Source of the DNA: Knoellia sp. S7-12
GTDB taxonomy: Bacteria > Actinomycetota > Actinomycetes > Actinomycetales > Dermatophilaceae
Length of the DNA: 64,000 nt
Direction of reading: 5' to 3'
Assembly (NCBI RefSeq): GCF_040518285.1
Contig: NZ_CP155449.1
Location: 1 to 64,000, forward strand
Under the pieces are notes generated by a model. The model had not been told where the DNA came from, searched no databases, and saw only the letters and a program-made list of their open reading frames with translations. The translations under genes were made by a program, and so were the position numbers. Positions 1,519 through 64,000 of this stretch are shown here, piece by piece (position 1 is the stretch's first letter; each line of letters starts with the position of its first letter).

Positions 1519-2153
1519 CGTCCGCTCTCCACAGCATGTGCTGGCGCCACAGTTATCCACAGGTTGATCCACACCTGTGGGCACCCCGTCACCCTTTCGT
1601 CACCTTGTCGGGCCCTGGGGCCCGGACCGGGCGCCGTCCACGGTATGTGGAGAACTCTGTGGACAACTCCGCCTGTGGACAACCTGGGGATCCGACTGAA
1701 TCGGCCTCTGTCCCCAATCCCTGTGGACAACTGTGGATAACCGTGGACAAGGGCTCTGCCGGGGTGGACAACGGGTGTCGTCGCCGTGGACGTGGCCACA
1801 CACGGATGTGGCCGTCAACAGGCCAAGGCCACCCGTCCACACTCCGTCCACATTTCATCCACGGGCTCGAGGAGTGCGCTGACCTGCACAGACGTCGTGT
1901 TGTCCACAGGATCCACACCTCCTACAACTCTGACGAGATCCCTCTATCAATTGTTCTGCCCCGATGACCTGCCTGTGGAACCCCGACCCTGACCCTTGGA
2001 AACATCTGAGCCGAATGACAACTTCGACTCAGGTGTCCCCGCCCACGTCCGTGCACTAATGTCATCTCTCCCGCATGCCTGCGCCTCATTGCGCCTGCGG
2101 TCTCGCACTTTGTTCTGCCAGTTCCACCCCACACACAGTTAGGTCGGTATGCC
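1519..2153. other. oriC: Chromosomal replication origin oriC
   Basis: This 635-bp gene-free stretch between dnaA and dnaN is dense in DnaA boxes. Perfect consensus sites are TTATCCACA at 1553-1561 and TGTGGATAA at 1732-1740. TGTGGACAA, the common actinobacterial variant, lies at 1658-1666, 1674-1682 and 1722-1730, with its reverse form at 1900-1908. One-mismatch sites include 1742-1750, 1763-1771 and 1909-1917. Boxes occur on both strands. The relatively AT-richer stretch at about 1917-2130 before dnaN is a candidate unwinding region and must also carry the dnaN promoter. A GTATGCCG octamer (2147-2154) overlaps the dnaN start codon. Confidence 0.95.
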
Positions 2154-3287
2154 GTGAAGTTCCGCGTCGAGCGTGAAGTCCTGGCCGAGGCGGTCACCTG
2201 GGTCGCCCGCGGACTTCCTGCGCGCCCCCCTGTGCCTGTCCTCGCCGGCATCCTCATCGAGGCCAACGACGAGGGCACCGTGACCCTGTCGGCCTTCGAC
2301 TACGAGGTGTCCGCACGGCTCACCGTTCCGGCTGAGGTGAGCGAGTCGGGGACCGTGCTCGTGCTCGGACGCCTGCTCGCCGACATCTCACGCAACCTGC
2401 CCAACAAGCCGGTCGATGTGGAGGTGATCGGCTCCAAGGTTCAGGTCGTGTGTGGTTCGAGCCGCTTCAGCCTGCTGCAGATGCCGTCGGACGACTACCC
2501 GACGTTGCCCTCCTCACCCGAGCCGAGCGGCTCGATCGACGGGCAGCTCTTCACCCAGGCCGTCAGCCAGGTCTCGATCGCTGCCGACCGCGGCGACACT
2601 CTGCCGATCCTCACCGGCGTCCGCGTCGAGATCGAGGGCGACAAGATGACGCTCCTCGCGACCGACCGCTACCGGCTGGCCATGCGTGAGCTCACATGGA
2701 ACCCCACCGACAGCGCCGCCAGCCACATCGTCCTCGTCCCGGCCCGCACCCTGGCCGACACGGCCCGCTCCCTCGGCGCCTCCGGTTCGATCGACGTGGC
2801 CCTGGGTTCCGCTGCCGGTGGCGACGGACTCGTCGGCTTCGAGGCCGGTTCGCGTCGCACGACCACGCGGCTGCTCGATGGTGAGTACCCCAAGGTGAGT
2901 TCGATCTTCCCGACGACCTCCGACACCGAGTCGGTCATCAACACGGCCGAGCTCGTCGAGGCCGTCAAGCGCGTCGCCCTCGTGGCCGAGCGCAACACCC
3001 CCGTCCGTCTGCGCTTCACCGAGGGCCAGGTCGCGATCGAGGCCGGCACCGGTGAGGACGCCCAGGCGAGTGAGGCCGTCGAGGCCACGCTCACCGGTCC
3101 TGATGTCGAGGTCGCGTTCAACCCCGGCTTCCTCCTCGACGGCCTCGGCGCCGTCGGCACAGAGTTCAGTCGGCTCTCATTCACTCAGCCGTCACGCCCG
3201 GCCGTCCTCAGCGGTCAGGCCGAGGCCGACGGCGAGCCTGACACCAGCTATCGCTACGTCATCATGCCGGTGCGTTTCGCGAGCTGA
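2154..3287 (+). CDS. dnaN: DNA polymerase III beta subunit (sliding clamp)
   Basis: This 377-residue protein forms the ring-shaped processivity clamp that tethers polymerase III to DNA. The GTG at 2154 begins MKFRVEREVLAEAV, matching the usual N-terminus, and the protein ends with the clamp-typical YRYVIMPVRFAS. The length fits three consecutive clamp folds of about 120 residues each. It follows oriC, as is standard in bacteria. A GTATGCCG octamer overlaps the start codon, and an inverted pair of the same octamer follows the stop codon. Confidence 0.98.
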   Translation: MKFRVEREVLAEAVTWVARGLPARPPVPVLAGILIEANDEGTVTLSAFDYEVSARLTVPAEVSESGTVLVLGRLLADISRNLPNKPVDVEVIGSKVQVVCGSSRFSLLQMPSDDYPTLPSSPEPSGSIDGQLFTQAVSQVSIAADRGDTLPILTGVRVEIEGDKMTLLATDRYRLAMRELTWNPTDSAASHIVLVPARTLADTARSLGASGSIDVALGSAAGGDGLVGFEAGSRRTTTRLLDGEYPKVSSIFPTTSDTESVINTAELVEAVKRVALVAERNTPVRLRFTEGQVAIEAGTGEDAQASEAVEATLTGPDVEVAFNPGFLLDGLGAVGTEFSRLSFTQPSRPAVLSGQAEADGEPDTSYRYVIMPVRFAS

Positions 3288-3326
3288 CCGGCGTAGCCTG
3301 ACGGAAATCGGTCAGGGACTGGCAGG

Positions 3327-3362
3327 GGTATGCCGCCCACTTGGGTGAGCACACGGCATACC
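3327..3362. terminator. Inverted repeat downstream of dnaN
   Basis: The arms GGTATGCCG (3327-3335) and CGGCATACC (3354-3362) are perfect 9-bp complements around an 18-nt loop, between dnaN and gnd. No T-run follows, as is usual for high-GC actinobacterial hairpins. It may attenuate transcription between the two genes. Each arm is a full copy of the window-wide octamer. Confidence 0.5.
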
Positions 3363-3417
3363 TTCGAATGTGCAGAACTTTCAAGACGAGCACGTCGCTC
3401 ATGTGAAGGGATAGTCA

Positions 3418-4555: not shown

Positions 4556-5752
4556 GTGTACGTCCGGCACCTCACCGTCGGCGACTTCCGGAGCTATCCG
4601 AGCGCCGAGCTCCCGCTCGAGCCTGGGATCACGACGTTCGTCGGGCTCAACGGACAGGGCAAGACCAACCTCGTCGAGGCCATCGGCTATCTGGCGTCGC
4701 TGTCGAGTCACCGGGTCGCCAATGATGCGCCGCTCGTGCGGTTCGGTGCGAAGCAGGCCATCATCCGCGGCGCCGTCGTTCGTGACGGTCGCGAGACGAT
4801 GGTCGAGCTCGAGATCACGCCGGGCCGGGCCAACCGCGCGCGCCTCAACAAGTCGCCCCTGACTCGTCCGCGCGACGTCCTGGGTCAGGTGCGGACGGTC
4901 CTCTTCGCCCCCGAGGACCTGTCGCTGGTCAAGGGTGACCCGTCCGAGCGCCGCCGCTTCCTCGATGACCTGCTCGTCGCGCGCCAGCCACGGTGGGCCG
5001 GTGCCCGCGGCGACTACGACCGGATCCTCAAGCAGCGCAATGCTCTGCTGAAGTCGGCGGCCCCTGTTCTGCGTGGCCGCGGCAAGAACAGGCGACCGGT
5101 CGAGGGTGTCGACGTGGTTTCTGAGAGGGAGGCCGCGCTCCACACCCTCGACGTGTGGAACGCCCAGCTCGCCCAGGTGGCGGCTCCCCTGCTCTATGCC
5201 CGGCTGCGTCTGCTCCGTGATCTGGCGCCGCTGCTCGGCAAGGCCTACGACGAGGTCAGTGCCGGGCAGTCCGACGCGAAGGTCAGCTACAAGGCGTCGT
5301 TGCGTGAAGATTTTGCGGCGCGGATCGCTGACGGTGAGGTGCCCGAGCTCGAGGAGCTCCACGCCGAGTTGCTCGCGTCCTTCGCCGAGGTGCGCGGCCA
5401 GGAGATCGAGCGCGGCGTGACGCTGGTCGGGCCGCACCGCGACGACGTGGTCCTCACCCTCGGAGAGCTGCCGGCCAAGGGCTATGCCAGCCACGGCGAG
5501 AGCTGGTCGTTCGCGCTGGGACTCAAGCTCGCGGCATACCACCTGCTTCGTCACGATCTCGGAGACGACCCGGTCCTCATCCTCGACGACGTCTTTGCCG
5601 AGCTCGATTCCGGGCGGCGCCAGCGGCTCGCCGCGATGGTCGCCGACTGCGAGCAGGTGCTCATCACCGCCGCCGTCGAGGAGGACGTTCCTTCAGAACT
5701 ACGCGGACGCACGTATGCCGTGTCGCTGGGTGAGGTGACCGCGCGTGAGTGA
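4556..5752 (+). CDS. recF: DNA replication and repair protein RecF
   Basis: This 398-residue SMC-like ATPase helps load RecA at single-strand gaps during repair. The GTG start at 4556 gives [14 protein letters not shown], the family N-terminus; the open frame further upstream overlaps gnd and is not family-like. Walker [10 protein letters not shown] is at residues 30-38, and the C-terminal Walker B region [15 protein letters not shown] is near 345-359. The stop overlaps the downstream DUF721 gene by 8 bp, indicating translational coupling. Two copies of GTATGCCG, one on each strand, lie in its 3' part. Confidence 0.97.
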
Positions 5753-6364: not shown

Positions 6365-7897
6365 CTATTGGTAGGACACGAACGAGGGCCTCGGGTCGAC
6401 CCGCTCCATCGTCTGCTCGACGCTGAGCATGGGCAGGTCCTCGTCCTCGAAGTTCTTCCAGCCGAGCCATACACCCTCGGGCAGGCCACGGCGCAGGGCC
6501 GCCCAGGTGCCCTGCTTCGCCGGTTGCGAGCCCTGCCCGTCCGCGTGCAGCAGCCACTGGATCTCGTCGATCGAGGTGTCGAGCCGCTCGCGGTCCCGGA
6601 TCATCCTCAGGTTGAACTGGTGCAGCGTGAGCACCTTGGGTGGCAGGTCGTGGGTGCGGACGAGGGAGGCGAGCCAGGTCCCGACCTCATTGACCTCATC
6701 AATGCCCACCGATCCGATCTGCTTCAGGTGGACCTGGTCGGGGCGAAGCCGCCACTCGGGGTCGAGCGCCAGGCCCACCCACGGGCGGGTGAGGAGTTCC
6801 TCGTAGGCCTTGGCCTGGGTGAGGAAGTCCGAGCGTCCGGGCTGGAGGTCAAGGACGACATAGATGCCGGCCTTCTCGGCAGCCTCGATCCAGGGCAGCA
6901 GCGTCGCGATCCTGGTGCGGGTGGAATAGGACCCGTCCTGCTTGGACACCGACGCGACGGTGGCGATGAGCTCGAACGCGGGGATGACGTGCGTGTCCGT
7001 CAGCGCGGCATACTCCTGCGCCAGCGTCTGTGCGCGGTCGACCGCCTCCGAAGCCGACTGCTCCCCGAGCATGCCGAGGGACGCGGTCAGCGGATGGCCA
7101 TAGAGCGCGATCATCATCCGGTCCGGGAAGGGGAGGTGTCCACCGCCGGGCAGCTCGGGAGCCAGGGTCGTGGTGCGCACCCGCTGCAGGAGCACCTCGT
7201 CGGCCCCGAACCCGGCGCCCACCGCCAGGACCGGCGCCTGCGGGAGGGCCCGCAGTGCTTCCCGGGCGACCTTCGACGTGCGGGGGTCGGGGCCGGTGAC
7301 GACCACCGGGTCGGTGCCCACTGCGTTCAGGAGGGGCTCGAGGGCCAACGGCAGGCGGGTGCCGTCGAGGATCAGGACTGTGGCGGCGGTGGCGGGTCGC
7401 TTCAGCGGGAGCCCAGGAAGATCGGGCAGGTCCTCCACGCTCGTGCCCTCCACGACCTCGCGGTCTCCGAAGGTGGTCGGGACCACCACGGTGGGTGATC
7501 CGGACCCCTTCCGTGAGCGGGCGGCATACCGCAGCACGGTGCGTGTTCCGAGCCGGTCGAGCTCGGCGGCGAGCGCGGGCCCTGCCACGAGGAGCGGAAT
7601 CCCGAGGTGGCTGGCCGCGGCCGCCCCGTCCGCGATGTCCCCGTCGTCGGGTGAGCTGACGACGATGGCGCTGGCCCGGTCCAGGAGCGCGCGGGAGGCG
7701 CTGGTGGTGACCTCATCGAGGGCGGCGCCGCCCGGGTCGACCGAGGCCGCGGCGGCTGCACGCCGGGCGCTGACCTCGCGCGGCTCGCCGTCCCCGTCAC
7801 CCTCTCGCGAGCAGGAGACGGTGGCTCCGGTGGCGACCACGACGGCGGCCGCGCCGGCAGTGCGAAGGACGATGCGGCGTGGGACAGCTGTGGTCAT
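6365..7897 (-). CDS. Tat-type lipoprotein with cell-wall-binding-repeat-like N-terminal half
   Basis: This 510-residue exported protein has an unknown role. The chosen ATG (7897) starts MTTAVPRRIVLRTAG, a twin-arginine signal, followed by a hydrophobic run and lipobox-like VSCS, so it is probably Tat-exported and lipid-anchored. Residues of roughly 50-290 contain segments of the type 'DGAAAASHLGIPLLVAG...L..LGTRTVLRY', which resemble cell wall binding repeat 2 modules. The C-terminal half (for example YVVLDLQPGRSDF and LALDPEWRL) looks like an alpha/beta barrel, but I do not recognise a catalytic family. It is divergent from the protease gene and convergent with dciA. It marks the left edge of the accessory block. 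Confidence 0.7.
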   Translation of the reverse strand: MTTAVPRRIVLRTAGAAAVVVATGATVSCSREGDGDGEPREVSARRAAAAASVDPGGAALDEVTTSASRALLDRASAIVVSSPDDGDIADGAAAASHLGIPLLVAGPALAAELDRLGTRTVLRYAARSRKGSGSPTVVVPTTFGDREVVEGTSVEDLPDLPGLPLKRPATAATVLILDGTRLPLALEPLLNAVGTDPVVVTGPDPRTSKVAREALRALPQAPVLAVGAGFGADEVLLQRVRTTTLAPELPGGGHLPFPDRMMIALYGHPLTASLGMLGEQSASEAVDRAQTLAQEYAALTDTHVIPAFELIATVASVSKQDGSYSTRTRIATLLPWIEAAEKAGIYVVLDLQPGRSDFLTQAKAYEELLTRPWVGLALDPEWRLRPDQVHLKQIGSVGIDEVNEVGTWLASLVRTHDLPPKVLTLHQFNLRMIRDRERLDTSIDEIQWLLHADGQGSQPAKQGTWAALRRGLPEGVWLGWKNFEDEDLPMLSVEQTMERVDPRPSFVSYQ

Positions 7898-8073: not shown

Positions 8074-9534
8074 ATGACGACGCAGCCAGGTCCCTCAAAG
8101 AACACGGCCACAGCACCTGTGTGGTGCGGGATCGTGCCGCCCTACCTGCTCCGGGCGCTCGCGTCATCGGGCGACCCCCGGGTCGAGGAGCGCGCCCGCG
8201 AGACGCTGCGCATCGACCAGCTCCGCTACGAACAGCACACCCGCCAGCACTCGCTGCGCGCCAGTGGTGAGCGGGTCAGCCGCAGCGCCACCCGGGCCAC
8301 GACGGAGGCGCCCAATCGGCTGATCCACGACGCCAAGAACGGCACCACCCTCCCGGGCACCAAGGTGCGCGCCGAGGGGGAGCCGGCCACGGACGACGTC
8401 GCGGTCAACGAGGCCTACGACGGACTGGGCGCGACCTGGGAACTGTGGCACGCGGCATACGCGCGCAATTCTCTGGACGACAGGGGCCTCGGCCTCGTCG
8501 CGACCGTGCACTACAGCGCGAACTACGACAACGCGTTCTGGGACGGGTCGCAGATGGTGTTCGGCGACGGTGACGGCGAGGTCTTCCTCGGTTTCACTCG
8601 CAGCCTCGACGTCATCGGGCACGAGTTGGCGCACGGTGTCACGCAATACACCTCTGGGCTCGTCTACCAGGACCAGGCCGGCGCGCTCAACGAGCACGTC
8701 TCCGACGTCTTCGGCATCCTCGTCAAGCAGCGATTCCTCGGGCAGAGCGCAGAGCAGTCGGACTGGATCATCGGTGCCGAGCTGCTCGCACCCGGGGTCA
8801 AGGGCGTCGGGCTGCGCTCGATGAAGGCGCCGGGCACGGCCTACGACGACCCGCGTCTGGGCAAGGACCCGCAGCCGGGACACATGGACGATTTCGTCGT
8901 CACCGACGACGACAACGGCGGCGTCCACATCAACTCCGGCATCCCCAACCGCGCGTTCCACCTCGTCGCGACCGCGCTCGGCGGCAACGCGTGGGGGCGT
9001 CCCGGAGCCATCTGGTATGCCGTGATCACCGGAGACATCAGGGCGGACTGCGACTTCGCGACCTTCGCCGCGCTCACCGAAGCCGCTGCCGCGGCCGCCC
9101 ATGGCGAGGACTCACCGGAGGCCGAAGCCGTGCGGGCCGCGTGGCGTGAGGTGGGTGTCACCGATGAGGCCGAGCAGTCACCGGCTCCCTCGCCCACCCC
9201 GACACCGACCCCCGCTCCAACCCCTCCCCCCGCCCCGGCACCTGCACCAGATGAGCCCCGTCAGGTCCAGGTCCGTCGCACGGGTGGGTTTGCCGGGCTG
9301 GTCCGCGAGCGCACCGTGGTCCTCGACGAGCTTCCGGAGCCGGATGCGTCAGCGTGGCGCGGTCTCCTCGCCGGTCCCACGCCACAACTGCAGGCGTATG
9401 CCGGCGGGCAGACGCAGCCTGACCGCTTCTGTTACGGCGTGAGCTGTGAAGCGCCACCCCTGGACCTGACGATCCAGGAGCCGGCTCTGCCCGACACCGT
9501 GCGTGAGCTCTTTGATCGGACCCTCGAGGCCTGA
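8074..9534 (+). CDS. M4 (protealysin-like) metalloprotease with C-terminal emfourin-like inhibitor domain
   Basis: This 486-residue zinc metallopeptidase starts at ATG 8074. Residues 1-60 match the short protealysin-type propeptide (CGIVPPYLLRALA). The catalytic core carries HELAHGVTQY (HExxH) and, downstream, GALNEHVSDVFG with the third zinc-ligand Glu, then GVHINSGIPNRAFH with the catalytic-site His region. A Pro/Thr linker follows (about residues 370-393). The last 95 residues (RRTGGFAGLVRERTVVLDEL and the C-terminal LPDTVRELFD) resemble emfourin, the protein inhibitor usually encoded separately beside such proteases. There is no signal peptide, as in protealysins. In the divergent upstream region a 7-bp inverted repeat (7988-8009) could be an operator. 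Confidence 0.9.
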   Translation: MTTQPGPSKNTATAPVWCGIVPPYLLRALASSGDPRVEERARETLRIDQLRYEQHTRQHSLRASGERVSRSATRATTEAPNRLIHDAKNGTTLPGTKVRAEGEPATDDVAVNEAYDGLGATWELWHAAYARNSLDDRGLGLVATVHYSANYDNAFWDGSQMVFGDGDGEVFLGFTRSLDVIGHELAHGVTQYTSGLVYQDQAGALNEHVSDVFGILVKQRFLGQSAEQSDWIIGAELLAPGVKGVGLRSMKAPGTAYDDPRLGKDPQPGHMDDFVVTDDDNGGVHINSGIPNRAFHLVATALGGNAWGRPGAIWYAVITGDIRADCDFATFAALTEAAAAAAHGEDSPEAEAVRAAWREVGVTDEAEQSPAPSPTPTPTPAPTPPPAPAPAPDEPRQVQVRRTGGFAGLVRERTVVLDELPEPDASAWRGLLAGPTPQLQAYAGGQTQPDRFCYGVSCEAPPLDLTIQEPALPDTVRELFDRTLEA

Positions 9535-9647: not shown

Positions 9648-12515
9648 ATGCAGCGGTCCGCCCAGTCACGTGCGCACCGGATGGTCGCGGCCGCCGCTGC
9701 TCTCGCCCTGACCGCGCTCGTCGCTGGTGTGGGCTCGGGTGCACAGGCCCGCGCCACACCGACCACCGTTCCGGGACGTGCGATGACCACGGACCCGGCC
9801 GTGACGACGACCGACCAGTTCGTCGACGTCGGCGCGGAGACCGACGGCACCGCCGTCCGTCTCGACACCCGGCTCTATCTGCCCGGCGGTGACGGCCCTC
9901 ATCCGGCCGTCCTGCTCGCGCACGGCTTCGGCGGCAGCAAGGAGAGTGTTGATCGCGAGGCCAAGCAGTACGCCGCGGACGGTCACGTCGTCCTCACCTT
10001 CACGGCCCGCGGCTTCGGCAGGTCCGGTGGCCGGATCCACCTGAACTCCCCTGACCACGAGATCGCCGATGGCACCGTCCTCCTCGACCTCCTTGCCGGA
10101 CGTCCCGAGGTCAGCAGCGACGGAGCAAAGGACCCCCGAGTTGCCGTCGCCGGCGGGTCGTATGGCGGGGCCTTGGCCCTCATGCTCGCGGCGGCGGATC
10201 AGCGGGTCGACGCCACCGTCGCCGCCATCACGTGGAACGACCTCTCGACGGCACTCTTCCCGCAGGCCGCGTCGGGCAGCACCACGCCCGGCCCCTACAA
10301 GCAGTTGTGGGGCACCCGGTTCTTCACCGCGAGCATCGGCTCCCCCGGGGGCAGTCCTGCCGGGGCGGCACCGGGTCCGTCGGCGACGCTCCCCAGCCCA
10401 TCGACATCCACTGGCCCGGCGAACCCCTCCGCTGTGCTGTGCGGGCGATTCGACCTCGAGCTCTGCGACGCGCTCCAGACAGCAGCCGAGACCGGCCGGC
10501 CGAGCCCCGAGCTGACCGCGATGCTGCGCCGCAACAGCCCGCGCGACACGATCTCTGGGGTCACGGCACCCACCCTGCTCGTCCAGGGTGAGGCGGACAC
10601 CCTCTTCGGACTGGACCAGGCCGACGCGAACGCCGTGGGTCTCGCTCGCGCGGGCACGCGCCACGCGGTGCGCTGGACCGATGGCGGGCACGACGGTGTC
10701 TCATCGAACCCCGGCCTGGACGAGGACGCCGCGCGGACGTGGCTCCGGGCCTACCTCCAGGGCACCCGCACCGATCCTCTCCCGGTCCCGGAATTCACCT
10801 ACTCCCTGCCGGTGACCCGAGGCCGCGACGCCGCGACGGTCGCGACCCTCAACCAGTACCCCGGCCTGCAGGGCAGTCAGCAACAGATCCCGCTGAGCCC
10901 ACCATCCGAACCGGCTGCCGTCCTCACCCCACCGGGTGGCCAGCCGAACTCGATGACCTCCATCCCGGGCCTGGGCTCACTGGAGCTGCCGACCTACCGG
11001 CTCGCCGCCCTCCCGGGCATGTCGGCCGCCTTCGACAGCCGTCCACTGTCGCGTTCGCTGACCGCCGTGGGCACGCCGACGGTCCGGCTCCAGATCACGT
11101 CCACCGGCCCAGAGGCGACGTTGTTTGTCTCGCTCTGGCGGGTGGAGGGTTCCGACGCGGTCCAGCAGCGCGCCCTCACCGCTCCTGTGCGGGTGGCGCT
11201 GACCCCGGGCCAGGCCACGGACGTGACCGTCAACCTCCCACCCTCTGTCTGGTCGATGACCACCGGGAGCCAGTGGCGGGTGCTGGTCACCTCGACGGAC
11301 AGTGCCTTCACGGTTCCCCGCGAGGCACGAGCCGACCGGATCACGCTGGCCACCCCCACCCTCACGGTGCCCACAGCGCAGGGCACGATCCTGCCGGCAA
11401 CAGCGGAACGCGACGCCGAATCGATCGCCCTCGTTGCCGGCATACTCGTCCTTTTGGCCGGAATCGGCGTGTCCGCACTCCTGCGACGCCGCCGCCGTCA
11501 CCGCGAGGTCATCCATGAAGAATTCGCCGACGTCCCTCTCGTCGTCGACCGACTCGTCAAGACCTATGCCGACGGGCACCGCGCCGTCGACGACGTGTCC
11601 TGGCGGGCAGAACGCGGCCAGGTCGTCGGCCTGCTCGGCCCCAACGGGGCCGGCAAGACGACGACGATGCGGATGATGCTCGGCCTCATCACGCCCGACT
11701 CGGGATCGGTCCATGTCCTGGGTCGACCGGTCCACCCCGGCTCGGAGGTGCTCAGCCGGGTCGGGGCACTCGTCGAGGGCCCGGGCTTCCTTCCCCACCT
11801 CACGGGTCGCGAGAACCTCAAGGCCTTCTGGGCCGCGACCGGACGCCCGGCCGATGAGGCCGGGCTGGACGAGGCCCTCTCGGTCGCGGCGCTCGGAGGG
11901 GCGCTCGATCGACCGGTCCGGACCTACAGCCACGGAATGAAGCAGCGACTGGGCATCGCCCAGGCCATGCTCGGCAGGCCGGAAGTGCTGTTCCTCGACG
12001 AGCCGACCAACGGTCTCGACCCGCCCCAGATCGCCGCGATGCGCCCGATCCTGCAGTCGTATGCCGCATCGGGACGCACCGTCGTCGTGTCGAGCCACCT
12101 GCTCGCCGAGGTCGAGCTGACCTGCAGCCACGTGGTGGTCATGCATGCCGGCAAGGTCGTCACCGCCGGGCCGGTCTCCGACCTCCTGTCGAGTGATGAC
12201 ACCACCGTCTTCGAGTTCGCCTCGATCGACGCGCTCGGTCCGGCGCGGACCGCGCTCGAGGACATGAGCGGCATACGCTCCGTCGAGACGATCGACGACC
12301 CGACGAAGCCGACCCTCACCGTCGTCTCTGACCGACCTCGCGAGGAGGTCGTCCGTGACCTCGTCGCGGCCGGAGCCGACGTCGTCGGAGTGGGCAGCCG
12401 ACGTCACCTGGAGGAGGTCTTCCTCGGGGTCATCGCCTCTTCGCAGGCACCGTCGGACCACGAGACCGGGGACGACTCGCTCATCGAGCGGTTGCGACAG
12501 GTGAGGGCACGATGA
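9648..12515 (+). CDS. Fusion of exported S15/CocE-type alpha/beta hydrolase with ABC transporter ATPase
   Basis: This 955-residue protein joins two unrelated modules. Residues 1-35 form a signal sequence. A CocE/X-Pro-dipeptidyl-peptidase-like hydrolase follows, with HGFGGSKE, the nucleophile elbow GGSYGG, an Asp region (QGEADTLFG) and a His region (GGHDG). Next comes a beta-rich C-terminal domain. A transmembrane helix (ESIALVAGILVLLAGIGVSA, about 592-611) then leads to a complete ABC ATPase: Walker A GPNGAGKTT, signature SHGMKQR and Walker B VLFLDEPTNGLD. The topology implies the hydrolase is outside and the ATPase inside. SD-like GGAGAGG precedes the ATG. The permease gene overlaps by 4 bp and should be its membrane partner. 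Substrate unknown. Confidence 0.88.
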   Translation: MQRSAQSRAHRMVAAAAALALTALVAGVGSGAQARATPTTVPGRAMTTDPAVTTTDQFVDVGAETDGTAVRLDTRLYLPGGDGPHPAVLLAHGFGGSKESVDREAKQYAADGHVVLTFTARGFGRSGGRIHLNSPDHEIADGTVLLDLLAGRPEVSSDGAKDPRVAVAGGSYGGALALMLAAADQRVDATVAAITWNDLSTALFPQAASGSTTPGPYKQLWGTRFFTASIGSPGGSPAGAAPGPSATLPSPSTSTGPANPSAVLCGRFDLELCDALQTAAETGRPSPELTAMLRRNSPRDTISGVTAPTLLVQGEADTLFGLDQADANAVGLARAGTRHAVRWTDGGHDGVSSNPGLDEDAARTWLRAYLQGTRTDPLPVPEFTYSLPVTRGRDAATVATLNQYPGLQGSQQQIPLSPPSEPAAVLTPPGGQPNSMTSIPGLGSLELPTYRLAALPGMSAAFDSRPLSRSLTAVGTPTVRLQITSTGPEATLFVSLWRVEGSDAVQQRALTAPVRVALTPGQATDVTVNLPPSVWSMTTGSQWRVLVTSTDSAFTVPREARADRITLATPTLTVPTAQGTILPATAERDAESIALVAGILVLLAGIGVSALLRRRRRHREVIHEEFADVPLVVDRLVKTYADGHRAVDDVSWRAERGQVVGLLGPNGAGKTTTMRMMLGLITPDSGSVHVLGRPVHPGSEVLSRVGALVEGPGFLPHLTGRENLKAFWAATGRPADEAGLDEALSVAALGGALDRPVRTYSHGMKQRLGIAQAMLGRPEVLFLDEPTNGLDPPQIAAMRPILQSYAASGRTVVVSSHLLAEVELTCSHVVVMHAGKVVTAGPVSDLLSSDDTTVFEFASIDALGPARTALEDMSGIRSVETIDDPTKPTLTVVSDRPREEVVRDLVAAGADVVGVGSRRHLEEVFLGVIASSQAPSDHETGDDSLIERLRQVRAR

Positions 12516-25649: not shown

Positions 25650-27806
<2,157 letters not shown>

Positions 27807-27830
27807 TGGGTATGCCGTTCGCTCGCGTCG

Positions 27831-55274: not shown

Positions 55275-56420
55275 ATGAGGTCCTACTGCGCGGTCTACGT
55301 CGATGTCGGCTACCTCCTCGCGTCAGCGGCCACTCGCGTCACCGGTTCGTCGCTGCGCAGCGGCATCGAGGTGGACTACCCGGGCCTGATTGCAGGGCTC
55401 GTCGCCCAGGTCGAGGCCGACTCGGGGCTGCCGTTGCTGCGGGTCAACTGGTACGACTCCGGCGCGCGCTCCGGCGGCCAGCCCGACTACCACCAGGACC
55501 AGATCGGGCTCCTGCCCCGGATCAAACTCCGGCTCGGACGCCTGTCGTATGCCGGCGAGCAGAAGGGCGTCGACGTGCGCCTGGGTCTCGACATGGCGTT
55601 GCAGGGTCGGGCACGCGTCGCAGATGTCGTCTATCTCGTCTCCGGGGACGACGACCTCACCGAGGCCGTCGAAGAGGCGCAGAGTGCCGGTGTCCAGGTC
55701 GTCCTGCTGAGCGTGCCCGCGCAGAGCGGTCACGGTCACGCCGTCTCCAAGCACCTCCGCAGGGCCGCCGACGGCGAGCAGCCGATCGACGCCGAGATCA
55801 TCGACCGGTGCGTGCGCTCCCGGGCGATCGCGGAGGGTCTCATCCCGACCGAAGCCACGGAGGGCACTGCCGAGGAGCCGGCCCTCGTTCCCAACGGGGC
55901 CTCCCCCGTCCCCCCCACCCCTCCCGTCGAGAGCGCGGACGCCAGTCCTGCCGACATTGCCATTGCCACCCCGACACCGGGGCGCACCCTCGAGCCTGGG
56001 CACGACGAGCCCTCATCCGACAAGACCTCAGCGGCTGGCACGGTCGCCAAGCCGGCATCCCCGACCCCGGCGGTGTTCGGTCGCAAGCGGGCCACCGAGG
56101 TGGTTCTCCCGGCAGCGCAGCCGTCACCCACCTGGTCGTCGTCGACCGGGGAGCGGCCCATTGTCGATGAGGACGGTGTCTTCAACCCGGAGCTCATCGA
56201 CGTCGTCGCCAAGGCCGTTCTTGACTCGTGGTGCCGGACCGCAACTCCGGCCGCACTCCTTGCCCTGCGCGAGGCCCAGCCGACGATTCCGGGCGAGCTT
56301 GACCGCGCCCTCCTGCTCGACCTGTCGGGCCGAGCGGGTGTCTATGACATCGACGACGCGAGCCGGCACGCGGTCCGCGAACGCTTCTGGTTCCACCTCG
56401 CCCGCGTCCGCTTGGCCTGA
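55275..56420 (+). CDS. NYN/PIN-like domain protein
   Basis: This 381-residue protein has an N-terminal NYN domain (about 1-160), a PIN-like nuclease fold that often acts on RNA. Acidic metal-ligand positions are plausible in VYVDVGYLL, KGVDVRLGLDMA and VSGDDDLTEAV. A Pro/Ala/Thr-rich linker follows (about 190-290), then a C-terminal helical domain (VFNPELIDVVAKAVLDSWCR) found after NYN domains and in LOTUS/OST-HTH-like arrangements. RNA processing is inferred, not shown. Starts at ATG 55275. Confidence 0.85.
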   Translation: MRSYCAVYVDVGYLLASAATRVTGSSLRSGIEVDYPGLIAGLVAQVEADSGLPLLRVNWYDSGARSGGQPDYHQDQIGLLPRIKLRLGRLSYAGEQKGVDVRLGLDMALQGRARVADVVYLVSGDDDLTEAVEEAQSAGVQVVLLSVPAQSGHGHAVSKHLRRAADGEQPIDAEIIDRCVRSRAIAEGLIPTEATEGTAEEPALVPNGASPVPPTPPVESADASPADIAIATPTPGRTLEPGHDEPSSDKTSAAGTVAKPASPTPAVFGRKRATEVVLPAAQPSPTWSSSTGERPIVDEDGVFNPELIDVVAKAVLDSWCRTATPAALLALREAQPTIPGELDRALLLDLSGRAGVYDIDDASRHAVRERFWFHLARVRLA

Positions 56421-57317: not shown

Positions 57318-57839
57318 TCATCTGGCGGATCGGGTCAGCGTTCCACCCAGGCGCTCGCGGGCGCCGCGTCCACGACGCTCGACGGGGACCGTCCCGGTGA
57401 GGCGACCCAGGCCGACCCTGGCCCCGTTGCCATAGAGCGTTTCGATGTGACCGGCGGGGACGGCATACGTCTCGTGCCAGATGCCCACGGCGCCAGGGCT
57501 TTTGCGGGCAGCGGCATTGAAGGCCCGCCACGCCGGGAGGTGAGCGTTCTCGGCTCGTCGTGCGTACGCATACAGCAGCTCGGTGCTGCGCCACCACTGC
57601 ACGACGAACGGACCCTGGGCTCCCACAAGTGTTGTGGCACCGAGGAATCCGAGGTCCTCGGCTTCTCCCCGCTCGGCTGCTGCCCTGTTGCGGCCGAGCT
57701 CGGCGAGCATCCTGGGCATGGCGGTGAAGACCGGCACCCACAGGTCGGGGCGGTGCCACTTGCGGATCGTCATGCCGATGAGGAAGACGATGACCTCACC
57801 CTCGTGGGCGTGGGTCGTGGGTGCGCTGCTCTCGGACAC
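57318..57839 (-). CDS. DUF4188 family protein (putative monooxygenase-like)
   Basis: This 173-residue protein shows the DUF4188 pattern: FLIGMTIRKWHRPDLWVPVF, PFVVQWWRSTELLYAYAR, HLPAWRAFN, GIWHETYAVPAG and ETLYGNGAR-like ETLYGNGARVG. The fold is dimeric alpha/beta-barrel-like, as in small heme-type monooxygenases. It is divergent from a MerR regulator, which suggests induction by a small molecule. Confidence 0.8.
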   Translation of the reverse strand: MSESSAPTTHAHEGEVIVFLIGMTIRKWHRPDLWVPVFTAMPRMLAELGRNRAAAERGEAEDLGFLGATTLVGAQGPFVVQWWRSTELLYAYARRAENAHLPAWRAFNAAARKSPGAVGIWHETYAVPAGHIETLYGNGARVGLGRLTGTVPVERRGRGARERLGGTLTRSAR

Positions 57840-57945
57840 GAGGTGCTCCTGTTTGGGATAGTGGAACTACCTGAGACTGCTCTCAGTTTGGAGAGGTCTA
57901 CTATCCAATGTCAAGGAGTTTCTGGCGAAGACCTGGAGGTATGCC
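57840..57945. promoter_or_regulatory. Divergent promoter region of the DUF4188 and MerR genes
   Basis: A palindrome CTGAGA-n4-TCTCAG lies at 57871-57886, flanked by inverted TTGGGATAGT/ACTATCCAA-like halves (about 57853 and 57900). MerR-family proteins bind such dyads in the spacer of the target promoter. On the minus strand TTGACA (57914-57909) could be a -35 element. Confidence 0.5.
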
Positions 57946-58584
57946 GTGCGGCTGGCTGAGTTGTCCGAGACCAGTGGGGTGTCCGTTGCGACGCTGAAGT
58001 ACTACCTGCGCGAGGGTCTGCTGCACCCGGGGCAGGCGGTGTCCCGGACACAGGCGGACTACGACGAGACCCATGTCGAGCGCGTGCGACTCGTGCGGGC
58101 ACTCAGCGAGGTCGGCGGGCTGTCGCTCGCGACGATCGGGCGGGTCCTCGAGGTCATCACCTCACCGGGGCAGGACTGGATCACGGTCCTCGAGACGGCA
58201 CAGCGAGCTATCGGCAGCGGTCGTGCTGCGGACCCCGACTCATCTGACGGCAGTGCCCCCGACCAACCTCGCGGTCCCCGGGCTTCGGCCTGGCTGGTGG
58301 CCCGTGGTTGGCAGGTCCATCCGAACGACCCGTTGATCGACGACCTCGAACGGGCCTGGGCAGCCTGCGATGACGTGGGACTCGGGCTAGACGAGGAGCG
58401 GATGAACGCCTATGCCGACCACGTCGAGCGGATCGGCGAGATCGACGTCTCGACCGTTCCCGCCGACCCCGAGGGGGCGATCCGCCAGGTCATCCTGGGC
58501 ACGGTGCTCGTCGACCCGGTGCTCGCGGCCCTGCGGCGGCTGGCCCACCAACACATCTCGGTGTCGCGGACCGCGAGTCACTGA
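57946..58584 (+). CDS. MerR-family transcriptional regulator
   Basis: This 212-residue regulator starts with GTG 57946. The MerR DNA-binding domain is clear: MRLAELSETSGVSVATLKYY, then REGLLHPGQ and VERVRLVRALSEVGGLSLAT. The C-terminal effector domain lacks the Cys ligands of metal sensors, so an organic or stress signal is likelier. Targets are probably the divergent DUF4188-DoxX genes and the downstream glycosyltransferase, which starts 4 bp after its stop codon. Confidence 0.9.
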   Translation: MRLAELSETSGVSVATLKYYLREGLLHPGQAVSRTQADYDETHVERVRLVRALSEVGGLSLATIGRVLEVITSPGQDWITVLETAQRAIGSGRAADPDSSDGSAPDQPRGPRASAWLVARGWQVHPNDPLIDDLERAWAACDDVGLGLDEERMNAYADHVERIGEIDVSTVPADPEGAIRQVILGTVLVDPVLAALRRLAHQHISVSRTASH

Positions 58585-58588
58585 TCCG

Positions 58589-59830
58589 ATGAAGGTCAAC
58601 ATCATGGCCGCAGGCTCACGCGGCGACGTCCAGCCGATGGTGGCGCTCGGCGTGGGACTGACCCGGGCCGGACACGACGTCACGGTCTGCGCAGGCGACG
58701 ACTTCGAGGACCTCGTCACCCACCACGGCCTCGGCTTCGTCCCCGCTGGCGTGCGGATCGATGACCTCATCGCGTCGCCGCTCGGCGTCGAGTGGCTCGG
58801 CCACTCGAGCCGCAATCCGTTTCACGAGCTCTCGGCGCTGCGCCGCTTCGTGCAAGCGTCAACGCAGGGGTATGCCGGGGCTCTCGTCCCGCTCGTCGGT
58901 TCCGCTGAACTGTGGGTGAGTGGGGTGATTACCGTCCACGCCGTCGATGCGTTGGTGTCGGTCGGTGGTGGGAGACACGTCGTCGCCGAGCTCGCGCCGA
59001 TGCGCCCGACGAGGGCGGGTGCGGCGACGCTGTCACCGGTGCTTCCGACCCGGTCCTCGATCGCGAATGTCGTTGCGGGACAGGCGACTCTGCAGGCGAT
59101 GTCGTCGGTCTTCTCGCTTCCCGGCGACCGGCTGCGGGCCGAGCTCGGGCTCCCGGAGACCGGCCGACGAGGATTCCTCGGCGCGATCAGGCGGACGCCC
59201 GGGCTGCTGGCGGCCTCACCTCTTGTCGTCCCTGCACCAGCGGACTGGAAGGGCAACCCGACGCCCACGGGGTATTGGTTCCTCGACGAAAAGGCAACGT
59301 ACGCACCGGAACCGGAGCTGGCGGCATACCTGGAGGAAGGTCTGCCTCCGGCATATGTCGGGTTCGGGTCGATGTCGACTCGCGAGGCCACTTCGATGAG
59401 TGCGGTGGTCGCGGACGCGGCACGCCTGGCGGGGGTTCGCGTCGTCCTGCATGCGGGGGCGGCGGGTCTGGAGTCCGTCGACGACGAGAGGGTGCGCGTG
59501 GTCAACGACGTGCCGCACGGCTGGCTCTTCGAGCACGTCAGCGGGGTCGTGCACCACGGCGGTGCCGGGACGACGGCGGCGGCCCTGCGTGCCGGGGTTC
59601 CGCAGGCCGTGGTGTCGCACATCGGCGACCAGCCCTATTGGGGCCGGCGGGTCCGGGAGCTCGGCGTCGGTGCGCGGCCGGTCCGGCGGCACGAACTGTC
59701 GGTGGAGTGGTTGACGGACGTGCTGCGAGGGTTCGCTCGGGGTGAGTGTGCGCAACGAGCAGCCGCCGTGGGTGCAGGAATTCGGCGCGAGGACGGTGTC
59801 GGTCGGGCCGTCGAGCTCCTCGGCGGGTGA
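58589..59830 (+). CDS. UGT-like glycosyltransferase (GT1, sterol-glucosyltransferase type)
   Basis: This 413-residue cytoplasmic enzyme has a GT-B fold. The N-terminus MKVNIMAAGSRGDVQPMVAL and C-terminal donor-site motif VVHHGGAGTTAAALRAGVPQ, with DQPYWGRRV, match sterol/lipid and natural-product glycosyltransferases. It probably transfers a sugar from UDP- or TDP-sugar to a small lipophilic or antibiotic acceptor. Co-transcription with the MerR gene hints at detoxification; that is inference. Confidence 0.88.
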   Translation: MKVNIMAAGSRGDVQPMVALGVGLTRAGHDVTVCAGDDFEDLVTHHGLGFVPAGVRIDDLIASPLGVEWLGHSSRNPFHELSALRRFVQASTQGYAGALVPLVGSAELWVSGVITVHAVDALVSVGGGRHVVAELAPMRPTRAGAATLSPVLPTRSSIANVVAGQATLQAMSSVFSLPGDRLRAELGLPETGRRGFLGAIRRTPGLLAASPLVVPAPADWKGNPTPTGYWFLDEKATYAPEPELAAYLEEGLPPAYVGFGSMSTREATSMSAVVADAARLAGVRVVLHAGAAGLESVDDERVRVVNDVPHGWLFEHVSGVVHHGGAGTTAAALRAGVPQAVVSHIGDQPYWGRRVRELGVGARPVRRHELSVEWLTDVLRGFARGECAQRAAAVGAGIRREDGVGRAVELLGG

Positions 59831-59864: not shown

Positions 59865-60731
59865 TCAGTTGTCCCAGCGCAGGCGCACGGCCTGTCCGGG
59901 TTGGAGCTGGGCGGCGCGGTCGACGGCGGCCGGGCGCAGCACGCCGATGACGGGGTAGCCGCCCGTCACCGGGTGGTCGCTGAGGAAGATGACGGGTTGG
60001 CCGTTGGGCGGGACCTGGATCGCACCGCGCACCATCCCTTCGCTCTGGAGCTCGGCCTCCACCAGCTCGGGAACGCGCTCGAGAGGCTCGCCCTCGAGCC
60101 GAATCCCCTTGCGGTCACTACGTGACGAGACCTGCCAGGGTGTCTGAGCGAGCCGTTCGGGATGCGCGAACCAGTCGAGTCGGGGGCCGGGCCTGACCTC
60201 GAGGTCGACCAGCCCAGTGGGAGGTTCGGCGACTCCTGCTACGTCGACGACAGGGAAGCCGACGGTCCGCGTGCCGACGGGCACCACCTGACCGGCCTTG
60301 ACCGGCTCGGCGCCCAACCCCGACATCGTGTCGAAGGAGACCGACCCCAGCACCTCCGGCCCGGTGAAACCACCGCGGACCGAGACATAGGTGCGCAAGC
60401 CGGCGAGCGGCATACCCAAGGAAAGTTCTTGACCATCCCGGACCTCGAACAGGGCAGCTCGTGGCACCGGCCGCCCGTTCACCTCGGCCGGGGTGGACGC
60501 GCCGGTGAGGCAGATGAGCAGGTCACCCGACGCCCGCAGGCGCAGACCTCCGAACGTCACCTCCAGTGCTGCGGCCCCATCCGCGTTGCCGAGCAGTCGG
60601 CCGCCGAGGAGATAGGAGCCCAGATCCGCGGCGCCGGCCCGGCCGACGCCGACGGCGAGGTGGCCGATGCGGCCCCGGTCCTGGAGCGTGGTCAGGGGTC
60701 CCGGCACCAGGATCTCGACGCTGCGGGTCAT
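59865..60731 (-). CDS. pxpC: 5-oxoprolinase subunit PxpC (biotin-dependent carboxyltransferase-like)
   Basis: This 288-residue protein is a KipA/PxpC family member, with [20 protein letters not shown] near the start and [20 protein letters not shown] near the end. With PxpA and PxpB it forms the bacterial 5-oxoprolinase that returns 5-oxoproline to glutamate using ATP. ATG 60731 overlaps the pxpB stop by 4 bp. Confidence 0.93.
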
Positions 60732-62167: not shown

Positions 62168-63442
62168 TCAGCCCCAGAGTGCGCGCAGGCCGGTGATGGA
62201 CTGGTAGCCGAGCCAGAGGGTGAGCAGCCACGCGAGGACGCCGACCGAGAGCAGCCACTTCGGGTAGGCGTAGCCGCGCAGGAGGTCGCGTCGACGCCAG
62301 GCCACCCACAGGATCACCGTGAAGCCGATCGGGAGGATCACTCCGTTGAAGCCACCGGCGAAGACGAGCAGCTTGACCGGTGCCTTGCCCAGCAGGAGGA
62401 AGAGGACGGTGCAGACCGCGATGAAGGCGACGGTCGCGAGGTTGCGCACGCGCGGGGAGGTCTGCTGCGTCGTGAGGAACGAGACGGTCGTGTAGCTCGC
62501 GCCGATGACGGACGTGATCGCCGCTGCCCAGAAGATGACGCCGAAGGCACGGAGCCCGAACTCGCCAGCGGCCTGCTGGAAGGCGCTCGCGGCCGGGTTG
62601 TCTGCGGCCAGCTTGGCCCCGCCGTGGACGACACCGAGGACGGCGAGGAAGAGGATCGCGCGCATGATGCCGGTGACGATGATCCCGTAGACCGAACCCT
62701 TGGCGATCTCCCTCGCGTGCTCGGGGCCGGTGTTGCCGGACTCGATGAGGCGGTGCGCACCGGCATACGTGATGTAGCCACCGACGGTGCCACCGATGAG
62801 GGTCGTGATGGCCAGGATGTCGATCTGCTCCGGCAGCACGCTGTTCTTCAGGGCGAGGCCGACGGGCGGGTTGCTGGTGAAGGCGATGTAGGCCGTCAGG
62901 CTGATCATGACGAGGCCGAGGACGACGACGATCTTGTCGAGTGCCGCACCGGCTCGCTTGACGAGGAAGATGCCGATGGCCAGGGCCGCGGAGAGGATGG
63001 CGCCGATCTTGGGGTCGAGGCCGATCATCGAGTCAGTGCCAAGCCCGGTGCCGGCGATGTTGCCGATGTTGAACACCAGGCCGCCGAGGAGGATCAGCAG
63101 GGCGAGGGCCCAACCCAGGCCCGGGGCAACGCGATTGGCGAGCTCATTGGCTCGCAGACCCGAGACGCCGATGACGCGCCAGACGTTCATCTGCACCGCG
63201 ATGTCGACGAGGATCGACACGACGATCGCGAAGGCGAAGGCGGCTCCCAGCGTGACCGTGAAGTTCGTGGTCTGGGTGATGAACCCGGGGCCGATGGCGG
63301 AGGTGGCCATGAGGAACATCGCGCCGAGGAGGGCGCTGCGGCCGTTGGCCTTCTGCTCCTGCTGGGTCGCCGGATCCGTCTGGTCCGTCTGGTCAGGGTG
63401 ATTCGGCTCGGTGCCGTCGAGCGGGGTGGTCCTGGCGTCCAT
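62168..63442 (-). CDS. NRAMP-family transporter linked to 5-oxoproline genes
   Basis: This 424-residue protein has about 11 helices and NRAMP-related sequence ([19 protein letters not shown]). The canonical helix-1 metal motif DPGN is not seen; the equivalent place reads IGPGF, so divalent metal transport is doubtful. Bacillus ycsG, an NRAMP relative, sits with ycsF and kipIA, so uptake of 5-oxoproline or a related compound is a reasonable inference. ATG 63442 is used. It is the first gene of the operon. Confidence 0.85.
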
Positions 63443-63518
63443 GGGGCTCCGACCTGTGCGGCACCAGTTCCCTGGTGCAGGGGCAACCACATCGTTGTGG
63501 CCGTGATTGAAGGTAGCG

Positions 63519-63556
63519 GATTGTTGAACAATCCGGCAAGGCTATTGTTCAACAAT
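63519..63556. promoter_or_regulatory. Twin operators for a GntR-family regulator
   Basis: Two palindromes, GATTGTTGAACAATC (63519-63533) and ATTGTTCAACAAT (63544-63556), have centres 24 bp apart. The pattern fits the FadR-subfamily GntR operator type. They lie between the divergent NRAMP-pxp operon and the GntR gene, so both may be controlled. Confidence 0.8.
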
Positions 63557-63584
63557 CTTTGGTTCGGCGATCTAGAGTGACGTC

Positions 63585-64000
63585 GTGAGCAACAGCGCCC
63601 TCTCCGCCGCCCTGCAGCGCATCCCCGACGGCGAGAGTGCCCTCCCATCGGCGGCAGAGCGGGTCGGCAACGCCCTGCGTGCCCAGATCGTCGATGGCGC
63701 CCTGCAAGCAGGAACGCGCCTCACCGAGGAGACCATCAGCACGGCGATCGGCTTCTCCCGCAACACGATTCGCGAGGCCTTCGCGCTGCTGGCCGCCGAA
63801 CGCCTCGTGGTCCGCGAGCCGAACCGCGGCGTCTTCGTCGCCACCCCGACCATCGAGGACGTGCATGACCTGTATGCCGCACGCCTCGTCATCGAGCCCG
63901 TCGCCCTCGAGCGTGGTCCCGACTTCGGGCCCCATACCGCAGTCGCGCTCCAGGCGATCGTCGACGGGGCTCGCAGCGCCGCCGCAGGAGGCGACGTCGC
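63585..64000 (+). CDS. GntR-family regulator (FCD type), truncated by the window end
   Basis: At least 138 codons are open from GTG 63585 to the window end. The winged helix reads ALRAQIVDGALQAGTRLTEE, then IGFSRNTIREAFALLAAERL and REPNRGVFVA. The start of an FCD effector domain follows (VHDLYAARLVIEPVALE). It probably represses the divergent 5-oxoproline operon, as KipR does in Bacillus, though KipR is of another family. Adjacent palindromes support autoregulation. Confidence 0.9.
   Translation, partial: MSNSALSAALQRIPDGESALPSAAERVGNALRAQIVDGALQAGTRLTEETISTAIGFSRNTIREAFALLAAERLVVREPNRGVFVATPTIEDVHDLYAARLVIEPVALERGPDFGPHTAVALQAIVDGARSAAAGGDV

Follow-up and report, generated by a model that had tools for sequence, protein, structure and literature searches.

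A strongly over-represented octamer in Knoellia sp. S7-12 is a likely DNA uptake sequence with dialects across its actinobacterial family

The window, which is the whole 64,000-nt stretch analysed here, contains three open reading frames with Pfam matches to DnaA (1-1518), GyrB (25659-27806) and GyrA (28070-30826), followed by two that match a penicillin-binding transpeptidase (49308-50765) and an FtsW/RodA-type protein (50762-52285). The octamer GTATGCCG is dispersed through this stretch in 55 exact copies, 25 on the forward and 30 on the reverse strand; its reverse complement is CGGCATAC, and it is not palindromic. The five frames named above hold 0 copies, as the preliminary description had stated for dnaA, gyrB, gyrA, pbpA and rodA. 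Its copy positions agree with ours in 53 of 55 cases, and the two corrected ones are marked in the following list, in which CDS and intergenic assignments rest on a rough gene caller made for this analysis.

Copies of GTATGCCG (coordinates, strand, context)
2147..2154, +, overlaps start of called CDS 2154-3287
3328..3335, +, intergenic; inverted pair with 3354; fold z -1.3, not outstanding
3354..3361, -, intergenic; inverted pair with 3328; fold z -1.3, not outstanding
5532..5539, -, in CDS 4556-5752 (RecF-type)
5713..5720, +, in CDS 4556-5752 (RecF-type)
7006..7013, -, in CDS
7522..7529, -, in CDS
8453..8460, -, in CDS
9015..9022, +, in CDS
9396..9403, +, in CDS
11438..11445, -, in CDS
12059..12066, +, in CDS
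12269..12276, -, in CDS
13743..13750, +, in CDS
14543..14550, -, in CDS
14741..14748, -, in CDS
14838..14845, +, in CDS (previously given as 14839)
15899..15906, -, in CDS
16575..16582, +, in CDS
18337..18344, +, in CDS
18498..18505, -, in CDS
21847..21854, +, intergenic; inverted relative to 21902
21902..21909, -, intergenic; inverted relative to 21847
21927..21934, -, intergenic; same orientation as 21902, the sole non-inverted close pair
23014..23021, -, in CDS
23647..23654, +, in CDS
24411..24418, +, intergenic
25492..25499, +, intergenic
27810..27817, +, intergenic, directly past CDS 25659-27806 (GyrB)
28025..28032, -, intergenic
31947..31954, -, intergenic
32836..32843, -, in CDS
33947..33954, -, in CDS
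34200..34207, +, in CDS
39167..39174, -, in CDS
40346..40353, +, intergenic; left arm of 21-bp hairpin with 40364; z -10.5
40364..40371, -, intergenic; right arm of 21-bp hairpin with 40346; z -10.5
41432..41439, +, intergenic
42146..42153, -, intergenic
43275..43282, -, intergenic
44382..44389, -, in CDS
44898..44905, +, in CDS
45143..45150, +, intergenic, directly past CDS 44428-45141
48352..48359, -, in CDS
53469..53476, -, intergenic
54444..54451, +, in CDS
54587..54594, -, in CDS
55547..55554, +, in CDS
57461..57468, -, in CDS (previously given as 57471)
57939..57946, +, intergenic
58870..58877, +, in CDS
59322..59329, -, in CDS
60408..60415, -, in CDS
62761..62768, -, in CDS
63872..63879, +, in CDS

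The over-representation on both strands that had been described was confirmed. In 100 dinucleotide-preserving shuffles of the window the mean number of copies was 0.87 and the largest 5, so that the two to three copies previously expected by chance were slightly too many, and under an order-2 Markov model GTATGCCG is the top-ranked octamer of the window (55 vs 1.3 expected). The 4.16-Mb genome has 2,805 copies (1,406 forward and 1,399 reverse), about one per 1.5 kb and far above expectation, compared with 79 (33 + 46) for a control pattern read backwards. The octamer stands at 24 times its expectation and its one-mismatch neighbours all at 2.4 times or less. A fixed ninth base was looked for in the flanks and none was found, with at most 0.33 bits at any position; the unit is strictly 8 bases long.

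Most coding copies are read as Tyr-Ala (99 of 187) or Ala-Tyr (61 of 187), as had been noted before, and this is what a codon-pair preference creating the excess would produce. However, the codon-pair control leaves a mean of only 20.2 copies (maximum 32) of the 187 after 50 synonymous shuffles. Tyr-Ala is spelled TAT-GCC in 99 of 107 cases with G..G flanks and otherwise with TAT in only 62 of 225, so that TAT is favoured only where the flanking bases complete GTATGCCG. Furthermore, intergenic DNA is also enriched, and the octamer is about twice as dense there (1.08/kb) as in genes (0.51/kb). Codon-pair preference as the cause is refuted by these three results, and its probability is next to nil. 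The octamer was kept in a relative at 30 of 35 aligned sites, whereas octamers of the same composition were kept in 1,022 of 2,725 cases (37.5%) and neighbours in 6 of 23.

Copies of GTATGCCG had also been described as hairpin arms or loops, and the close pairs are indeed inverted in 19 of 20 cases. Four of five inverted pairs that were folded are far more stable than shuffles, and some of the hairpins are followed by T runs as in terminators. These intergenic hairpins are what would be expected if GTATGCCG were a transcription terminator or another RNA hairpin element, but the inverted close pairs hold only 32 of 108 intergenic sites, a non-intergenic copy is involved in only 3 of the 19, and a terminator requires a stem, not one fixed octamer. 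Such a role is thus unlikely as the sole function, and we give this explanation of the octamer a very slight probability.

Another explanation is that GTATGCCG is recognised by a DNA methyltransferase or by a restriction system, an idea that has been discussed for cyanobacterial HIP1. Against this, GTATGCCG is no palindrome, contiguous asymmetric 8-base sites are unusual among known systems, and restriction selects against sites, not for them. In its favor, HIP1 is likewise a heavily repeated octamer and is described as tied to methyltransferases, although HIP1, unlike GTATGCCG, is palindromic (PMC4390886). On balance, a methylation or restriction site is highly improbable.

The comparison with relatives that had been proposed was carried out on 119 genomes of the family and adds genus-specific dialects to the pattern. 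The word GTATGCCG is present in high number in 61 of them, and a comparable enrichment was seen in 0 of 182 further genomes of the same order. One-base dialects were found as GGATGCCG (983-2,258 per strand in 7 genomes of the 119), GTATGACG (754-1,016 in 5), GTATG[ACG]CG (three Flexivirga loci), GAATGCCG (L132) and GTATGCGG (G020), and the dialect words that were tested lie 7- to 14-fold above synonymous shuffles. Relatives in Janibacter carry the unrelated octamer CGAAGGGG, with 902-1,615 copies per strand in 7 of 119 genomes and at most 209 in the remaining 112; the seven rich genomes have at most 23 copies of GTATGCCG per strand. Of the 119 genomes, 46 have no high number of any of the four counted words, six of them having 134-204 copies of GTATGCCG per strand. 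The backwards control also reaches raised counts in some genomes, up to 299 per strand, which leaves a margin of only 2.5- to 3-fold there.

Chi sites are short, over-represented and different between clades, and the clade-specific octamers are compatible with a Chi-type hotspot, in which GTATGCCG would regulate an intracellular machine for double-strand-break resection (RecBCD or the actinobacterial AdnAB). However, the lack of strand bias reported earlier holds along the replication direction, with 154:143 copies in a 464-kb sample and an origin taken by assumption to lie near base 1, although this sample does reveal polar octamers, for example AGGGCAAG at 40:16. The subunit that reads Chi, RecC, was found in 0 of 5 searched genomes of the window's genus and in 47 of 119 of the family, in word-bearing and word-free genomes alike. 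Neither the inverted pairs nor the twofold intergenic excess is expected of Chi, and we consider this role unlikely.

The search for competence genes that had been suggested found ComEC and ComEA-type genes and, for a pilus, Tad/Flp genes. In this strain ComEC lies in an open frame, the adjoining gene encodes a ComEA-type SLBB+HhH protein, and TadA and TadC-type genes are present. Across the family, ComEC occurs in 114 of 118 genomes, including nearly all of the 46 that nonetheless lack a high word count, and each of the 40 tad loci that were read has a TadA match. The comEA, comEC and Tad/Flp genes are present in word-bearing and word-free genomes alike, and in the com and tad loci compared no gene separates the two groups. 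PilM, the sole marker used for the type IVa pilus, is absent from this strain (G000) and occurs in 5 of 118 family genomes; its absence from G000 speaks against a Neisseria-type DUS system with type IVa pilus and ComP. The flp pilin gene of this strain is split by an insertion of about 161 kb, so that the strain may at present lack competence. In the 91.4 kb of the insertion that were read (766-836 kb left out), GTATGCCG occurs 7 times, 0.077/kb vs 0.64/kb. The insertion is presumably foreign, and would then be one case of word scarcity in foreign DNA.

This scarcity is unexpected of a chromosome-organising site, whether FtsK-orienting or like parS, matS or the site of a nucleoid protein, as is the rapid change of dialect between genera. 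The genome-wide spread suits such a site, but GTATGCCG has no polarity and occupies both arms (82+/85- among the copies sampled from the right arm, 58+/72- among those from the left), and we regard this explanation as very improbable.

The resemblance to DNA uptake sequences that had been proposed is strengthened by the genome-wide counts, the synonymous shuffles and the intergenic density. Neither of the outcomes named beforehand as refuting it, counts close to expectation or an excess that codon pairs explain fully and intergenic DNA lacks, was obtained. We think it likely, from sequence comparison, that GTATGCCG is a DNA uptake sequence, that is, a self-recognition tag of natural transformation. 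A putative sequence-specific surface receptor, which probably sits at or close to the Flp/Tad pilus, would bind extracellular double-stranded DNA carrying GTATGCCG in either orientation and hand it to ComEA, after which a single strand would enter via ComEC and recombine with the chromosome. Tag-bearing alleles would be over-transmitted because tagged kin DNA is taken up more often, and copies would therefore accumulate wherever they are tolerated, such as at synonymous positions, in intergenic DNA and as inverted pairs in hairpins. A shift in receptor preference, followed by the genome, would give the genus dialects and the different word of Janibacter.

The 12-base Neisseria DUS shares ATGCCG with GTATGCCG, which we treat as chance. 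The DUS of Neisseriaceae are alike in having a short word repeated exactly in very high number, with terminator-linked inverted pairs, few-base dialects between related genera that track phylogeny, and two dialects co-occurring in one genome, but the word described there is different and has 10-12 bases, not 8 (PMC3630211). Furthermore, the hosts here are Gram-positive actinobacteria with a Tad/Flp locus, PilM is absent, the receptor is only predicted, and a wholly unrelated second octamer occurs inside the same family. The Pasteurellaceae USS has a 9-base word and flanking AT-rich parts, whereas the flanks of GTATGCCG stay within the 0.33 bits per position given above. The likeness to USS lies in an over-represented self-recognition word with two types described in one family (PMC1626085, PMC12616744). 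In the actinobacterium Micrococcus luteus, natural transformation is reported to depend on the Flp pilus, and comEA, comEC and Flp/tad pilus genes occur without a comG cluster, as here; in contrast to the present case, the available text mentions no uptake word (PMC6370729).

A 2025 paper gives uptake-sequence systems as known only from the Gram-negative Neisseriaceae and Pasteurellaceae. We lean towards regarding the Intrasporangiaceae/Dermatophilaceae as a third family in which transformation with recognition of self DNA arose independently, and as the first such family among Gram-positives, with uptake through a Flp/Tad pilus, an octamer-reading receptor and at least five one-base dialects. 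Drift of the octamer, together with its replacement or retuning in Janibacter, would have isolated the genera from each other for transformation, and mobile DNA, of which the 161-kb insertion is an example, would retaliate by breaking up the pilin gene. Finding the complete genomic signature in a family of Gram-positive actinobacteria, down to the dialects and a second word of unrelated sequence, would show that transformation acquired self-recognition once more, this time with another type of pilus. Two questions could then be tested on many natural replicates: how thousands of genomic sites change in step with a receptor, and whether conservative sex is what uptake words are for or biased receptors produce them as a side effect. 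The finding would further provide a means of transforming soil actinobacteria.

The octamer GTATGCCG, which the preliminary description had counted about 55 times in the window (about 25 forward, 30 reverse), is present in exactly 55 copies, 25 forward and 30 reverse, against 0.87 in dinucleotide shuffles. Its positions hold as first listed except for two that are slightly off, and its reported absence from dnaA, gyrB, gyrA, pbpA and rodA was confirmed by our own ORF calls and Pfam. The window is the start of a single contig of 4,163,720 bases, which carries 1,406 forward and 1,399 reverse copies, or one per 1.48 kb, compared with 33 and 46 for the same pattern read backwards. In a 464-kb sample, made up of the window and 20 evenly spaced 20-kb stretches (L001-L020), 297 copies were found where an order-3 Markov model expects 12.4. 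The word measures exactly eight bases: its 24 one-mismatch neighbours range in this sample from 0.15 to 2.4 times expectation, and no flanking position carries more than 0.33 bits.

According to a rough in-house gene caller, on which the coding and intergenic figures rest, the 297 sampled copies comprise 187 in called genes, 108 in intergenic DNA and 2 on edges, giving densities of 1.08/kb between genes and 0.51/kb within them. Codon-pair bias, earlier raised for Tyr-Ala, is ruled out as the source of the excess by synonymous codon shuffling within genes, since the enrichment persists with 187 coding copies against a mean of 20.2 and a maximum of 32 in 50 shuffles. Where the adjacent bases would complete the octamer, 99 of 107 Tyr-Ala pairs read TAT-GCC; elsewhere, with the octamer not completed, the tyrosine codon is TAT in 62 of 225. 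The missing strand bias noticed at the outset was also borne out, the sampled copies dividing 154:143 when oriented by replication, on the assumption that the origin is close to base 1 and the terminus around mid-contig. A polar chromosome motif is rejected as far as this could be tested; in the same sample other octamers do show polarity, AGGGCAAG at 40:16 among them. That the word serves as a RecBCD-type Chi is unlikely, because GTATGCCG is without polarity and RecC is absent from all five searched genomes of the window's genus. A palindromic methylation site was likewise rejected for GTATGCCG, as far as this could be tested. Both AGGGCAAG and the similarly replication-polar AGGCCAAG (37:18) are about 3.5 times over-represented in the sample and lie in one reading frame of genes in 48 of 56 and 46 of 55 cases, respectively. 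ACGTGAAA and TGTGGACA, abundant at near-origin loci, were set aside as what we take to be parS and DnaA-box sequences.

Neighbouring copies of GTATGCCG at most 60 bases apart are inverted in 19 of 20 sampled pairs, the remaining one not, and about 11 neighbours within this distance, in any orientation, are expected by chance. Inverted pairs with both members intergenic hold 32 of the 108 intergenic copies. Of five folded pairs, four greatly exceeded shuffles in stability (z -6.9 to -10.5), while the fifth, at window position 3328, did not stand out (z -1.3). The suggested likeness to DNA uptake sequences (DUS) gains from this anatomy, which matches the Neisseria type: the parts of PMC3630211 considered here describe, as found here, a word that is short and exact, dialects in line with the phylogeny, the presence of two dialects within a single genome and inverted pairs at terminators. 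A literature search without most subscription papers and preprints found no report of an actinobacterial uptake word, and among the matches listed for the letter string of the octamer in papers, none was about it by title.

The copies are well kept in relatives. In the closest one, aligned over three stretches (L120 and G065, which we infer to be one genome), GTATGCCG is intact at 30 of 35 places, whereas same-composition octamers are intact in 1,022 of 2,725 cases; in the same alignments, one-mismatch neighbours are kept in 6 of 23 cases and octamers with TAT likewise placed in 17 of 70. Eight further comparisons, of the window with more distant named relatives, each show at least half of the aligned copies intact (2 of 4 to 4 of 4), against a background of 25-38% for all octamers.

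On the forward strand, 61 of 119 family genomes have at least 400 copies of GTATGCCG, 10 have 126-200 and 48 fewer than 100; in some genomes the margin is only 2.5-3-fold because the backwards control is raised there (up to 299 per strand). Within one genus, G025 and G096 bear the word and G069 does not. No genome from other families of the same order (n = 182) has more than 88 per strand. In a phylum sample outside the family (n = 293), the maximum is 196 per strand, in the 7.5-Mb genome G168, with a control of 92, and a small genome outside the family, G392, has 82 and 79 copies against 18 and 12 for the control.

Related words, each differing by one base, replace or accompany GTATGCCG in 20-kb samples around comEC from 20 genomes then classed as low-count and 20 as high-count. 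Two of them were confirmed by counting whole genomes: GGATGCCG reaches 983-2,258 copies per strand in seven of the 119 genomes, from three genera (G016, G064, G026, G044, G079, G103 and G118), the next-highest family genome having 674; GTATGACG reaches 754-1,016 in five (G003, G027, G070, G097 and G114) and 133-436 in 14 more. Among the named recF-region loci (the best 80 of 419), three Flexivirga carry GTATG[ACG]CG, Humibacillus sp. DSM 29435 carries GGATGCCG and a Phycicoccus MAG carries GAATGCCG. Synonymous codon choice does not explain the dialect words tested, whose coding copies number 87 vs. 12.7 in synonymous shuffles for GGATGCCG, 11 vs. 0.8 for GTATGACG, 10 vs. 0.7 for GAATGCCG, 13 vs. 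1.4 for GTATGCGG and 19-21 vs. 2.0-2.7 for the three Flexivirga forms.

An unrelated octamer, CGAAGGGG, occurs 6-23 times per locus in nine named Janibacter and Marihabitans loci, where the backwards control and GTATGCCG each occur 0-1 times. Pooled with four loci of the genera g37 and g38, these have 95 copies in coding sequence where synonymous shuffles leave 23.4; the intergenic density is 1.80/kb. One-mismatch neighbours are mostly near expectation, led by CGAATGGG (5 vs. 2.1) and CGAAGCGG (59 vs. 27.6), and inverted pairs are arranged like hairpins. Genome-wide, CGAAGGGG reaches 902-1,615 per strand in seven of the 119 genomes, namely every g37 and g38 genome sampled, and at most 209 in the remaining 112; from the common word, g37 and g38 would be Janibacter relatives. 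By whole-genome counts of GTATGCCG, GGATGCCG, GTATGACG and CGAAGGGG, with GTATGCGG, GAATGCCG and GTATGGCG left out, 73 of the 119 genomes have one of the four words in high number and 46 do not.

The search for further words in 19 pools of word-free genomes (G014 left out) turned up nothing beyond GC-rich candidates of low fold and a weak GTACG[AC]CG signal, which are not claimed. GTACG[ACGT]CG is mildly enriched in G040/G102, G023, L164 and L194-L199 (word-free family members and Nocardioides), reaching 1.6-4.1 times the synonymous-shuffle level in those tested, and is perhaps another dialect or a codon context. Sixteen samples from 10 other families of the order, each a single 20-kb stretch in which weaker words could be missed, held no octamer as strong as those in word-bearing genomes. 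One lead outside the family is GGATGCCTC in G341 (L231), with 9 spread copies in 20 kb (3 forward, 6 reverse; 0.41 expected) and C after every GGATGCCT; it is perhaps a longer uptake word akin to GGATGCCG.

A RecF tree of 61 rows was built from the window and 60 of the 80 recF loci (57 family members, 3 outgroups), the 20 left off being additional Nocardioides or short contigs. A row was taken as word-bearing with at least 5 GTATGCCG, 10 GAATGCCG or 12 GGATGCCG in its locus; Janibacter is scored negative because only these words count, as is Phycicoccus sp. Soil748 with 3 copies. Presence of the GTATGCCG group needs 7 changes, compared with 18.7 with shuffled labels; the starred branches force at least four, and several deep branches hold word bearers. 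An early presence of the words, followed by repeated loss or replacement, fits this tree of one gene and many weak forks.

In the actinobacterium Micrococcus luteus, comEA, comEC and Flp pili constitute the transformation apparatus, according to parts of a review (PMC6370729). Of 118 family genomes, 114 have ComEC, and the four in which it was missed are drafts 58, 81, 95 and 68% complete; in G000, the genome of the window, it is in an open frame and adjoins a protein of ComEA type that has SLBB and helix-hairpin-helix domains. Word-free G049 (L056) has a ComEC match at 2,175,993, adjoined by a serine-recombinase-like gene, and a weak second one 28 kb apart at 2,204,467 (E 5.6e-4), and its comEC may be interrupted. 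In 40 tad loci from 40 genomes, TadZ-, TadA- and TadB-type matches occur in all 40, TadC in 39, Flp in 38 (including a partial match in G000), TadE in 35 and TadF in 21, the names TadZ, TadB, Flp, TadE and TadF resting on position, few Pfam matches and recall. The TadA-type ATPase model matches 117 of 119 family genomes and is little informative, because 13 of 14 control genomes match too. PilM, a type IVa pilus marker, was found in 5 of 118 family genomes; a type IVa-like pilus gene occurs, besides Tad/Flp, in word-bearing G025 (L021), whose PilM match is nearly full-length (132 bits). A second Tad-like cluster was seen in 20 stretches (19 with gene calls), in word-bearing and word-free genomes alike. 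In the genomes and loci read, none of ComEC, ComEA, the tad genes and PilM separates bearers from non-bearers, and comparing presence with absence yielded no receptor candidate. Protein clustering of 40 com and 40 tad loci, with Janibacter-type G037 and G038 counted as word-free and both G014 loci left out, gave no cluster common to most word-bearing genomes and missing from the word-free ones; the most skewed clusters, at 5 bearing to 0 word-free, span few genomes. Flp, TadE and TadF sequences inspected by eye showed no feature tied to the words.

In G000, flp itself, which lies outside the window, is split, with its start at 680,873-680,961 and its remainder, together with tadE-/tadF-like sequence, from 842,358 on:

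G000:C1:680,962-842,357, insertion of about 161 kb, low in the octamer, splitting the Flp pilin gene (L080, L200, L237-L239, L242)

At about 684-691 kb the insertion holds a further Tad-like cluster, with a SAF-domain protein, CpaE-/CpaF-like ATPases and small genes resembling pilins, the names being given partly by eye. Another tadF-like stretch is found at about 851.2 kb, and metabolic genes spanning several kb separate the two tadF-like copies. The octamer occurs inside the start of flp (L080:13874-13963), and likewise in a relative's gene in L081. Conflict between transformation and integrated elements is the subject of PMC11472951 and PMC12637031, to judge from portions of each. The 91.4 kb of the insertion that were read (680,962-766,000 and 836,001-842,357) contain 7 copies of GTATGCCG, or 0.077/kb vs. 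0.64/kb in the sample, which fits DNA of presumably foreign origin that is not yet adapted to an uptake filter, and with flp split this strain may recently have lost its pilus.
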